A stretch of 45,364 nt of DNA, taken from Actinomycetes bacterium (GTDB taxonomy: Bacteria > Actinomycetota > Coriobacteriia > Anaerosomatales > Anaerosomataceae). The translations under genes were made by a program, and so were the position numbers. Below, one piece after another: positions 38,899 through 45,364 of this stretch (the stretch's first letter is position 1; every line of letters starts with the position of its first letter). Where the stretch lies: assembly GCA_021373175.1 (NCBI GenBank), contig JAJFTE010000077.1:1-45364 (forward strand), given 5' to 3'. The notes under the pieces are model-generated. The model made no database searches. It was not told the origin of the DNA and saw nothing but the letters and a program-made list of their open reading frames with translations.

Positions 38899-39780
38899 CT
38901 AGCCCCCGTACAGCTTCCAGAGCGCCTGCGTTCCGAGGTCCTCGCCGCCCTGCTCGGCAAGCCGCTCGTAAAGCCGCTTGGCCAGATCGAGTCCTGGCAG
39001 GTCGAGTCCGGCCGTCTGAGCCTCGGTGAGCGCGATGCGCAGGTCCTTGATGAAGTGTTTGACGTAGAAGCCAGGGGCCATGTCGCCAGCCAGGATGCGC
39101 GGACCGTAGTTCGACATCGACCATGAACCCGCGGACCCGGCCGAGATCGCGCCCAGGACGCGCTGCGGGTCCAATCCGGTCGCCTTCGCATACGCGAGCG
39201 ATTCGACCACACTCAGCATCGTCCCTGCGATCGCGATCTGATTCGCCATCTTCGTATGCTGGCCGAAGCCAGCGCCACCCATATGCGTGACGGTCTTGCC
39301 AAGCACCTGAAAGATGGGGAGCACTTGGTCGAACGCCGCCTCGTCGCCACCCACCATGATCGTGAGCCGCGCCTCTCGGGCACCGATGTCGCCGCCGGAA
39401 ACAGGCGCGTCGAGTGCCGAGATACCACGCGCAGATGCCGCCTCGGCGATACGCAGGGCAAGCGTAGGGGTGGATGTGGTCATGTCAATCACGATCGCAC
39501 CGGCGCGCGCCCTGGAGATGATTCCGTCTGATGAGAGGTAGATCGCCTCCACATCGGTGGGATACCCCACGATCGTGATCGTCACGTCCGCGAGCACAGC
39601 GGCTTCTCCCGCGCTCGACGCCCAGCGGGCTCCGCGTGCGACAAGGTCCGACGCCTTCTCCGGCGTGCGATTGAATACCACCAGTGGATACCCGCTGTCG
39701 AGCAGGTGCCCGGCCATCGAGTGACCCATGACCCCGGTGCCGATGAAAGCGACGGTCGGCAGTTGGCGGGCAGTGCTCAT
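38899..39780 (-). CDS. Beta-hydroxyacid dehydrogenase (tartronate-semialdehyde/glyoxylate reductase type)
   Basis: 293 aa. N-terminal NAD(P)-binding motif FIGTGVMGHSMAGHL with NRTPEKA after the second beta strand (Arg suggests NADPH), DAPVSGGDIGAREA as the substrate-binding signature, and the catalytic Lys in FGQHTKMANQIAIAG (about 173). The family includes 3-hydroxyisobutyrate dehydrogenase, tartronate semialdehyde reductase and GLYR-type reductases; substrate not assignable. The start abuts the stop of the small Cys/His gene. Confidence 0.82.
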   Translation of the reverse strand: MSTARQLPTVAFIGTGVMGHSMAGHLLDSGYPLVVFNRTPEKASDLVARGARWASSAGEAAVLADVTITIVGYPTDVEAIYLSSDGIISRARAGAIVIDMTTSTPTLALRIAEAASARGISALDAPVSGGDIGAREARLTIMVGGDEAAFDQVLPIFQVLGKTVTHMGGAGFGQHTKMANQIAIAGTMLSVVESLAYAKATGLDPQRVLGAISAGSAGSWSMSNYGPRILAGDMAPGFYVKHFIKDLRIALTEAQTAGLDLPGLDLAKRLYERLAEQGGEDLGTQALWKLYGG

Positions 39781-40007
39781 CAGCAGGCCCCCGTGTCGTT
39801 GTCGTGCTGGTAATCCGCCCGCCCCACGAGGCTCCAGTCAATCAGCCCTGAGGCACACACCGGACACGGATGCGATGCAAGAAGCTCCAGGAGTTCGAGC
39901 AGGCCATCCTGCCGCGCGGGCACCATATGCGTGAACCGATGGCCGCACGCATGATCGACCTGCGCCGGCTGCTTGAGGACGATAGCTGCATCAGGAAGAG
40001 TCGCCAT
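39780..40007 (-). CDS. Small Cys/His protein, possibly leaderless
   Basis: 75 aa. Contains HACGHRFTH and ASHPCPVCASGL, a C-x-H plus C-x2-C arrangement that could bind zinc. No family recognised. The start ATG at 40007 has no ribosome site; a promoter-like pair places transcription start on or beside the ATG, so a leaderless mRNA is likely. It overlaps the hydroxyacid dehydrogenase start by one base, suggesting co-transcription. Confidence 0.55.
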   Translation of the reverse strand: MATLPDAAIVLKQPAQVDHACGHRFTHMVPARQDGLLELLELLASHPCPVCASGLIDWSLVGRADYQHDNDTGAC

Positions 40008-40043: not shown

Positions 40044-40086
40044 GAAGGCCGACCCGAATCACCCGGACGTCATCTGAACAAAGAGG

Positions 40087-40260
40087 TGTCCCGAGAAACC
40101 TCGCCCAGCGAAATCCTCTACTCCGCAGCTTCCCATTTCACACCTTTGAAGCCACCTGACGAGCGGACACTGCTTGCGCTGAGCCTCTCCGTCAAGTACC
40201 CCGCCGGTAGCTACTGGTACGCTGCCTTTCGCGGTTCGCCCGGTCCGACCTCTCGGGACA
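40087..40260 (-). ncRNA. Candidate structured RNA of about 174 nt, 6S-like layout
   Basis: The ends are a perfect 10-bp inverted repeat (TGTCCCGAGA at 40087-40096, TCTCGGGACA at 40251-40260). Nested inside are AACC/GGTT (40097-40100, 40233-40236), GCGAAA/TTTCGC (40108-40113, 40227-40232) and GCAGC/GCTGC (40125-40129, 40221-40225). Further in come a side hairpin GTACC/GGTAC (40196-40200, 40216-40220) and an apical hairpin TGACG/CGTCA (40157-40161, 40190-40194). That gives a closing stem, a wide central bubble and an apical stem, symmetrical to within a base or two, as in 6S RNA. The minus strand is favoured because a promoter at 40267-40295 starts exactly at 40260. No primary-sequence match to a known RNA is recognised. 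The rest of 40008-40427 shows no gene I can support. Confidence 0.5.
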
Positions 40261-40266
40261 ATCACG

Positions 40267-40295
40267 ACGATACGGCATGATTCGCGGGGGCGCAA
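40267..40295 (-). promoter_or_regulatory. Promoter of the candidate RNA
   Basis: TTGCGC (40295-40290) and TATCGT (40272-40267), 17-bp spacing, with six bases to the first base of the 10-bp terminal stem. The -35 hexamer is identical to that of the ilv-leu operon promoter. Confidence 0.5.
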
Positions 40296-40427: not shown

Positions 40428-40799
40428 CTATTTCGCTTCGAGCCGGGCCTGAACCACGTTCGCGGCCTGGCGGGCGGCGACGCGCACCGGTTGCCCCGCG
40501 CCCTCACAACGCTCGATAGCCCTGAGCGCCGACAGCTGTCTTTTCGAGTCTCCCGCCTCGAGGCTCTTCACCGCGCCAAGGCGGATCGTCGTCAGCCGAT
40601 GCTCACACGCGACGTACATGAGCGTCTCGGCGTTGAGCTGCCCGAACTCTCGACGGTTCTGAACGGCGAGCGCCCTGCGGCGACACGACTGCACGTAGCG
40701 CGCGCCGGACGCCGAGCCACCCGAAGCCTGCCGGGTTCGCCCGGCGCCGTCCGCGGGTTGCGATCCGGGTCGCTTCGGCTTGCGTTGCTTGCCGGCCAT
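40428..40799 (-). CDS. Small basic protein of unknown function
   Basis: 123 aa. A Lys/Arg/Gly-rich unstructured N-terminus (MAGKQRKPKRPGSQP, to about residue 35) is followed by a helical region (about 40-120) with many Arg and Ala and a heptad-like Leu spacing. No family recognised. GAGGAG lies six bases before ATG 40799, and the gene begins 13 bp after the second degV, so it is likely a real co-transcribed gene. Confidence 0.55.
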   Translation of the reverse strand: MAGKQRKPKRPGSQPADGAGRTRQASGGSASGARYVQSCRRRALAVQNRREFGQLNAETLMYVACEHRLTTIRLGAVKSLEAGDSKRQLSALRAIERCEGAGQPVRVAARQAANVVQARLEAK

Positions 40800-43300: not shown

Positions 43301-45241
43301 CTAATGCAGCAGCGCTTTCGCGGCGTTTCTCGGCGTGGCGCCCAGCGCCGACGTGCTGCCAAGGAAGCGGATCTCGTAGATCGAGTCGCGGTTCGCGGTA
43401 AGCGCTGCCGCCGTGTGCGAATCGAGACTGCTCTTCGGTGTGAGCAAGATGACGCTGTAATCGCTGCCCTGAAGCACGCCGCCGGCAAGCGCATCGGGGA
43501 AGTTCGTGCCCACGGCAAGCGCGGGGCGCGACCAGAGCATGCCCATGCCGTCGAAGCCAGCGTTCGCGATCTTGGCAGCGGTATCGTAGCGGTTCGTGCC
43601 GCCGTAGCGGGAGAAGTGAATAAAGGGCGCCGTGTTCAGTGTGGTCGCGACTGCGGAACCCACCGCATCGGTGCTGCCGAGGATATATCCGTGGTTCGAG
43701 CCGTCTGTGGTCATCGCGGTCTTGACCGCCGCTGGCAGGGCGGTCTTCCGCGTCAGGTAGATCGGCCAGCCGTTCGCGGCGGCGATCGGCGAGGCCGCAA
43801 GCGCGTCCGGGAAGTTCTCGCCCGTCGCGACGAACGCCGTGCCATCGTAACCCGCCCCGAGGTTAGCGAGACGTACGACCTCAGCAGCGATGAGGTTCGC
43901 GGTGGCGTAACGATCGCTTCCGCCAAGACGCGTCGGGGGCGCGAGGATCATGAGATCATGCACGGCATCGTACACGTCCGCGCTCACCGCGTCCTCACTG
44001 CCAAGAATATAGGCGGTGGTCGCATGCAGCCGAACGATCTCATCATGAACCGTGGCAGGCAGGGCACTCTTCGCGGTCAGCAGCAGCGGGCCGTGTACCA
44101 TGCCCGCGAGCGCCGCACCTCCCAGCGCGTCCGGCCAGTTCTCGCCGGTCGCGATCACGACCGTCTTCGCACCGTCCGGATACGCGCGCTTCGAGGCCTC
44201 GATCGCTGTGGTGTAGCGCGAGTCACCGGCGACCTGGGTCGCCTCGGTGGCGGTCGCGACGGTCCACTTGGAGATGCGGCTGTTGCCGTTGTCGGCGACA
44301 TAGACGTCCCGGACGAAGCCGACGCCTATGCCGAAGGGTCCTGAGAACTGCTCAGCACCTGATCCACCTGAGCCGGCGACTGCGAGCGGCGCGCCGGATG
44401 CCGAGAACGCCTGGATGCGTTCCGGAGACGCCTCGAGGCTGAACACATGTCCGCCCCCGTCGACGCCAACGTCATACGAGTAGGACAGTTGGCCGGGAGC
44501 CGTGCCTGTCCCGCCCCAGTGCCCCAGGGACGTGCCGGCAGGGTTGTACCGCAGCACGGAGTCAAGATCGCCGGTACCCGTGTGGTCCGTCACCGCGTAG
44601 ACGGAGTCGTCCTGCGACACAGCGGCTCCCAGCACCGGTCCGGATGGCGTCCACGAATTTCGGAATACGCCGAACCTGCTGAATCGCTGCAGCCACTTCG
44701 TGCTCTCAGAGTTGTAGACATCGCCGCTCCAACTGACTGCAAGACCGTTCGACGCGAAGATGTCCCCTGAGCCGGCTGTGTTGTCGCCGGTGATAGCGCG
44801 CAGCGGTGCGGTAGGCGTCTCGCTCACGTACAGACGCGGGTTCCACACCGAGATGCGATTCCCTGGCGTGCCCTCCGCGACGTACACATTGCCCCACCGG
44901 TCCGTCGTCACCATCCGCGGCTCGGAGAGGTACGGCGCGGCGGAGCCGGTCGTGCCGATCGAACGCACGAACACGCCGCTCGCGGTGAACATCTGTACGC
45001 GAAAGTCGTCGGTGCCGCCGCCGGTCACATACACGTTGCCCCACTTGTCCGCAGCGACATCGCGCGGCCAATGGAACGTCCCTGGTGGAAGGCCTGTCGA
45101 TACGCCGTTCGAACCCCAGTTCATGCCGTGTGACAGGGTGACGACGCCGTCGCCGAAAGCCGGTAAGGCCGTGCCGAATAACAGAACCGAGACCGCGATC
45201 ACGAGCGCGATCGCGGCGGACGCGCCTGGACGCACGCGCAT
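43301..45241 (-). CDS. Secreted NHL-propeller protein with three cell-wall-binding (CWB2) repeats
   Basis: 646 aa. Signal peptide (MRVRPGASAAIALVIAVSVL to about residue 30, cleavage near AFG). An NHL beta-propeller spans about 45-325, with GFVRDVYVADNGNSRISKW as the last blade. The C-terminal part (about 330-646) has three tandem CWB2 repeats, seen as RYTTAIEASKRAYPDG, RYATANLIAAEVV and RYDTAAKIANAGF starts followed by GENWPDALGGAALAG, GENFPDALAASPIAA and GTNFPDALAGGVLQG. CWB2 repeats attach proteins non-covalently to the Gram-positive wall. ATG at 45241 has GAGGAGG six bases upstream; the frame extends to 45289. A -10-like TATAGA lies at about 45296 in the minus direction. Confidence 0.88.
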   Translation of the reverse strand: MRVRPGASAAIALVIAVSVLLFGTALPAFGDGVVTLSHGMNWGSNGVSTGLPPGTFHWPRDVAADKWGNVYVTGGGTDDFRVQMFTASGVFVRSIGTTGSAAPYLSEPRMVTTDRWGNVYVAEGTPGNRISVWNPRLYVSETPTAPLRAITGDNTAGSGDIFASNGLAVSWSGDVYNSESTKWLQRFSRFGVFRNSWTPSGPVLGAAVSQDDSVYAVTDHTGTGDLDSVLRYNPAGTSLGHWGGTGTAPGQLSYSYDVGVDGGGHVFSLEASPERIQAFSASGAPLAVAGSGGSGAEQFSGPFGIGVGFVRDVYVADNGNSRISKWTVATATEATQVAGDSRYTTAIEASKRAYPDGAKTVVIATGENWPDALGGAALAGMVHGPLLLTAKSALPATVHDEIVRLHATTAYILGSEDAVSADVYDAVHDLMILAPPTRLGGSDRYATANLIAAEVVRLANLGAGYDGTAFVATGENFPDALAASPIAAANGWPIYLTRKTALPAAVKTAMTTDGSNHGYILGSTDAVGSAVATTLNTAPFIHFSRYGGTNRYDTAAKIANAGFDGMGMLWSRPALAVGTNFPDALAGGVLQGSDYSVILLTPKSSLDSHTAAALTANRDSIYEIRFLGSTSALGATPRNAAKALLH

Positions 45242-45364
45242 GGCGAACCTCCTCACTCGGAACCGGACATAACGAACGGTAACCCTCATGAGGAGTCTAT
45301 ACCATCGCGTGGGAAACGCTACGCGCTGGGCGGCGTCATCTGGAGTCCGAGCGCGCCCTCAAGC

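Follow-up and report, generated by a model that had tools for sequence, protein, structure and literature searches.

A candidate family of free-standing structured RNAs, distinct from 6S RNA, in the Anaerosomatales and a second class of Actinomycetota

Introduction

To our knowledge, few free-standing structured RNAs are kept across bacterial classes. They include 6S RNA, tmRNA, RNase P, SRP RNA, OLE and raiA, and most of those whose roles are known serve basic functions of the cell. 6S RNA (SsrS, RF00013) is transcribed from a free-standing gene with a sigma-A promoter and folds into a single rod, with a stem that closes its two ends and a large, single-stranded central bubble, conserved in shape, which mimics an open promoter; it binds the sigma-A holoenzyme and serves as template for pRNA, and in some bacteria it occurs as a pair of paralogues. 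Bacterial Y RNAs also have their ends paired in a conserved stem, with a variable interior. As for the Actinobacteria, 6S RNA has been stated to be absent from them and to be replaced in many by Ms1, a free-standing structured RNA of 6S-like shape (PMC9130861).

The window analysed here is a stretch of 45,364 nt from a member of the order Anaerosomatales, in which the gene-free gap at 40087-40295 had been proposed to hold a new structured RNA. Comparative analysis indicates that this gap holds a genuine gene for a small folded RNA of ~175 nt, read from the minus strand, and that the RNA almost certainly stands for a true family of free-standing RNAs under selection. The open literature was searched for RNA motifs in this lineage, with subscription papers mostly outside reach, and gave no description of it; the window RNA would be the founding member of an undescribed family.

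Comparison with 6S RNA, Ms1 and other known RNAs

The original prediction of a 6S-like RNA holds for size and rod shape, and the end-closing stem, the free-standing gene, the sigma-A promoter and the paralogue pair are further points of likeness; membership in the 6S family was rejected. The new RNA has a sequence-conserved internal loop, probably instead of an open bubble like that of 6S RNA, and it differs also by its GNRA cap and its invariant closing stem. With the RF00013 model (gathering score of 46.4 bits), the window copy had no match at E ≤ 10, and relatives and distant members had none at E ≤ 1; a separate 6S RNA exists in the window genome, at G000:C139:12624-12802 (L055:1501-1679), with 55.4 bits, above the cut-off of the same model. 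Contrary to the expectation that 6S RNA would be difficult to detect in this part of the phylum, it was present in 37 of 40 carriers of the new RNA, in 32 of them above the cut-off; these deep lineages are an exception to the absence reported for the Actinobacteria.

Regarding the other families of Rfam 15, no gathering-score match was obtained for the RNA in the window or its relatives, and lax E-values likewise gave nothing; sub-threshold F6 and Cyano-2 matches in L032 and L024 lay over neighbouring or edge hairpins and were discarded. Ms1 (RF02566, gathering score of 162 bits), known from Mycobacterium and Streptomyces, did not match at the window locus, and its best score in the window genome, 13.7 bits at another locus, is noise; the two RNAs have in common that they are actinobacterial, free-standing and of 6S-like shape, while Ms1 measures about 300 nt and occurs in other lineages beside other neighbours. 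Finally, unlike the bacterial Y RNAs, the new RNA has no visible tRNA-like module and its carriers lack Ro60/Rsr: no TROVE-domain protein was found in any of the 24 searched genomes carrying the RNA or its closing stem, nor in four to five Coriobacteriia without it.

The RNA gene and its parts

All features described here lie on the minus strand, the original prediction having named none. The core of the gene, from closing stem to closing stem, spans 172 nt at 40088-40259, with its 5' end at 40259, and the covariance model R1 scores 172.1 bits across 40080-40259. The closing stem, P1, is formed by GUCCCGAGAGGUC (40247-40259) on the 5' side, paired in 99.6% of cells, and by GGUUUCUCGGGAC (40088-40100) on the 3' side, as placed by the covariation alignment; it is invariant in most of the order, and compensatory changes are seen between classes. 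The rod that had been predicted is confirmed, with corrections to its parts: instead of a 10-bp closing stem and four further stems, P1 has 13 bp in the window copy (40259-40247 with 40100-40088) and the covarying consensus holds 11 helices. The place of the predicted central bubble is taken by a highly conserved, asymmetric internal loop, and is probably not open.

Moving inwards from P1, the first internal loop consists of GAAA (40227-40230), whose AAA is near-invariant in the order alignment (A3), and of AGUA (40119-40122) on the opposite strand. The central internal loop combines GUACCAG (40214-40220), identical in 43 of the 43 order members (A3), with GAAAUGGGAA (40130-40139; consensus GAAANGGGAA); the 3' strands of both loops were assigned from the alignment. 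The apex is capped by the tetraloop GCAA (40174-40177), which is of GNRA type in nearly all members, with many differing GNRA sequences among them. On the 3' side, P1 is followed by the pyrimidine-rich tail ACCUCUUUGUUC (40076-40087), whose counterpart in AT-rich members is a U-tract directly after the closing stem. The tail sequence ACCUCUUUU was considered as an anti-Shine-Dalgarno element, and this was rejected on account of the U-tract.

Folding of the single sequence gave a rod of -78.3 kcal/mol (z -1.8) for the minus strand and -58.8 kcal/mol (z -1.25) for the plus strand; taken alone this is weak evidence, only mildly better than for shuffled sequences, so that the case for the RNA rests on comparison with its homologues. 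A protein-coding reading was discarded, since in each of the six frames no more than 45% of the members are open, and the lengths are not multiples of three.

Covariation and conserved structure

The homologue search proposed along with the original prediction brought out the compensatory changes that had been looked for. In the order alignment (43 members), 92.3% of cells are paired, against 34-47% when the partners are slid; in the diverse alignment (58 members) the corresponding values are 89.9% and at most 55%. The fit of this second alignment used a model derived from members of the order, which biases it towards the structure; given the size of the margin, this is unlikely to matter. Double-sided changes affect 37 of 48 pairs and 510 cells in the 58 diverse members. 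In 300 simulations along the tree (FastTree, with column-wise change counts), the maxima reached were 73% of cells paired, 35 pairs and 226 cells, the simulated changes being slightly fewer than those observed (8.0 versus 9.2 per column). Alignment folding gave -100 for the RNA strand and -71 for its complement.

The stem between the GAAA//AGUA loop and the GUACCAG//GAAANGGGAA loop is rich in double changes; the central loop is invariant in sequence and has CC/GG pairs inside it, the CC of GUACCAG pairing with GG in all 58 diverse members (A5). From the letters GUA//GAA and GAA//AGUA, we infer that the two loops are sarcin-ricin/loop-E-type modules. Four loci (L147-L150) carry added hairpins at the variable N of GAAANGGGAA, between GAAA and GGGAA, which suggests that this position faces outward. 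Loops that are fixed in their letters, set among stems that covary, make the pattern that would be expected of a binding site.

Promoter and predicted transcript ends

The precisely placed promoter with a 17-bp spacer, another element of the original prediction, is present in the window as TTGCGC-N17-TATCGT. Its -35 element (40290-40295) accounts for the end of the predicted interval at 40295, and its -10 element (40267-40272) lies 7 nt ahead of the first paired base. It matches 7 of the 12 consensus positions, and a generic promoter scan did not flag it. Among relatives, a sigma-A-type promoter TTG[AC]nn-N16-18-TAnnnT occurs in 97 of the 97 loci with enough flank, against 0.28% in shuffled flanks; it ends 4-9 nt ahead of the first paired base (7 nt in 71 of the 97 loci), and its spacer is 17 bp in 86 of them. 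These promoters, the covariation and the breadth of conservation together strongly back the proposal of a new structured RNA. At the other end of the gene, a hairpin and a T-run lie 3' of many copies, the version in the window being weak or degenerate.

Distribution and paralogues

The genome of the window has a single further copy, 73% identical, and no dispersed near-identical copies, the sign of a mobile element that had been named in advance. The window copy is designated type A and the other one type B. Of the 27 genomes of the window's family, 25 have two or three copies. The -35 element reads TTGC in 24 of 24 A-type copies and TTGA in 72 of the 73 others; with such differing elements, the A and B paralogues may differ in strength or control.

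Of 398 sampled genomes of the class, 64 gave a match with the R1 model. All 64 lie in the window's own order, assigned as Anaerosomatales, of which 69 genomes were sampled, and they belong to 16 families. The ~330 other Coriobacteriia sampled gave no match; since searches of more than 40 genomes ran under stricter filters, such a lack of matches does not prove absence. In a sample of the phylum, nearly all the full-length homologues outside the class came from a single further class; of its 36 genomes, 30 match a second model, R2, some of these matches being weak or short. With a G+C content of roughly 39-55%, the members in this second class do not owe their match to composition. The model searches covered this phylum. 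An exact-pattern scan of GTDB contigs returned 58 stretches, nearly all from Coriobacteriia, Anaerosomatales or unclassified actinobacterial MAGs; the few other labels, such as Aeromicrobium sp., are probably bin names. Two matches from a viral scan were both read as chance in coding-looking sequence.

Genomic context

The names of neighbouring genes were read from translations only. In most Anaerosomatales families the RNA is divergent from a gene for a dtxR/mntR-type regulator, after which feoB often comes next, and queD and a ribonuclease H gene lie convergent to the RNA; in one family, copies flank the dtxR gene on both sides (L063, L064, L068, L078 and L102). In the second class, the neighbours include rnhA-like and ubiD-like genes. 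Type A copies, seen in the window's family alone, are found downstream of the gatB region. We infer that B, beside the dtxR-type gene, occupies the ancestral place and that A, beside gatB, is a later duplicate; the window's family keeps both paralogues, a dtxR-side and a gatB-side one, with their differing -35 elements.

Downstream genes vary and have either orientation (queD, MFS, HIBADH, diguanylate cyclase and others). Because the flanking genes differ between lineages, the genomic comparison shows an RNA that acts in trans. One apparent cluster of neighbours (CL 6) proved to be an ORF artefact overlapping the RNA itself. As for the rest of this part of the window, the A-type RNA adjoins a gene for a small protein of 123 aa (40428-40799, minus strand), conserved in the genus (cluster 13), and a 662-aa ORF (43301-45289, minus strand) looks secreted and, by eye, has NHL-type and CWB2-like cell-wall-binding repeats.

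Proposed mode of action and alternatives

At the level of sequence comparison, the data show a selected structure, a dedicated promoter and a trans-acting arrangement. Our preferred reading, to which we give a probability of about 0.5, is that of a free-standing, trans-acting RNA that acts through binding of a protein at the GUACCAG//GAAANGGGAA loop. It would be an RNA of housekeeping type, ~172 nt long plus a short tail, folded as a rod with conserved loops and a GNRA cap. Transcription by sigma-A RNA polymerase would begin at the foot of the RNA's closing stem, and this stem with the pyrimidine tail, often aided by the hairpin that follows, would end the transcript; with both ends paired, the RNA should be stable. 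The invariant central loop would then bind a protein, which the RNA would sequester or scaffold, the closing stem serving as a common handle. The protein-binding step is argued from the conservation pattern, and a role in tertiary contacts, ligand binding or base pairing would keep the loops too. The modest consensus match of the window copy's promoter (7 of 12) and its weak terminator speak against this reading.

An unlikely alternative is a second RNA that binds RNA polymerase, 6S-like in action and outside the 6S family, for which 6S-2 beside 6S-1 in Bacillus and Ms1 in other Actinobacteria are precedents. Size, rod shape, a closing stem at +1, the housekeeping promoter and the paralogue pair all agree with it, as does a conserved loop whose position is close to that of the central bubble in 6S RNA; however, this loop is kept in its letters whereas 6S bubbles are kept in shape, a real 6S RNA is at hand in 37 of 40 carriers, and neither 6S nor Ms1 gives a Rfam score here. 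A base-pairing regulatory RNA, perhaps linked to iron because the ancestral copy diverges from a dtxR-type gene and then feoB, seems rather improbable: the dtxR neighbour recurs in most families of the order, on both sides in one of them, but beyond the order the RNA lies beside rnhA, ubiD and other genes, and the conserved letters sit in structured internal loops and offer no open seed.

The remaining alternatives are less probable by far. A cis-acting leader (riboswitch or attenuator) would agree with the gene that follows in the window (39780-40007), in the same direction and 80 nt away; across loci no conserved same-direction gene was found downstream, the genes there differ and often face the RNA, and queD and rnhA are convergent in most B-type loci. 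This lack of a constant downstream gene argues against such a leader and makes it very improbable. A mobile element with terminal inverted repeats, whether a MITE, the main alternative in the original prediction, or another, is hardly tenable, even if inverted repeats do form the ends and these recur around different interiors: the two copies per genome are diverged (73% in the window genome) and sit at conserved, vertically inherited loci, internal covariation is strong, and neither target-site duplications nor unrelated flanks were found, since the left flank is always the promoter and the right one a pyrimidine tail. The shared closing stem with variable interiors would also suit a bacterial Y RNA that binds Ro60/Rsr through this stem, which is barely credible in view of the 24 searched carriers, all without a TROVE-domain protein.

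Shorter RNAs with the same closing stem

Weak model matches revealed RNAs, 44-160 nt long, that share the closing stem and promoter but have other interiors. Across 396 genomes, a pattern made of the promoter and the 5' strand of the stem was met at 41 places and its reversed control at 3, and most of the new places have a pairing 3' strand and a T-rich tail; four matches without a good closing stem (L227, L245, L259 and L260) were taken as chance. The short forms measure 44 nt in family f64, about 92 nt in f68 and 122-134 nt in f34. The shorter closing-stem RNAs lie at L209-L226, L242-L252, L257 and L258, in several further families of the phylum.

With the same stem and promoter on differing interiors, it may be the closing stem as such that some partner recognises, which is a lead. 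A tentative extension, possible though rather doubtful, is that GUCCCRAGARGYC//GRUUUCUYGGGAC is the shared handle of a superfamily of 44-172 nt RNAs in deep Actinomycetota, read by one protein.

Significance

The presence of the RNA in nearly the whole order and in most of the second class, side by side with a true 6S RNA, speaks for a housekeeping ribonucleoprotein. The part of the Actinomycetota to which the carriers belong is large and for the most part uncultured. Strains of the order have by now been brought into culture (PMC9686372), and they make the transcript, its partner and the loss of its function accessible to testing. If the closing stem is indeed a handle common to the whole superfamily, these lineages would possess a new ribonucleoprotein system, and the window RNA would be its best conserved long form.
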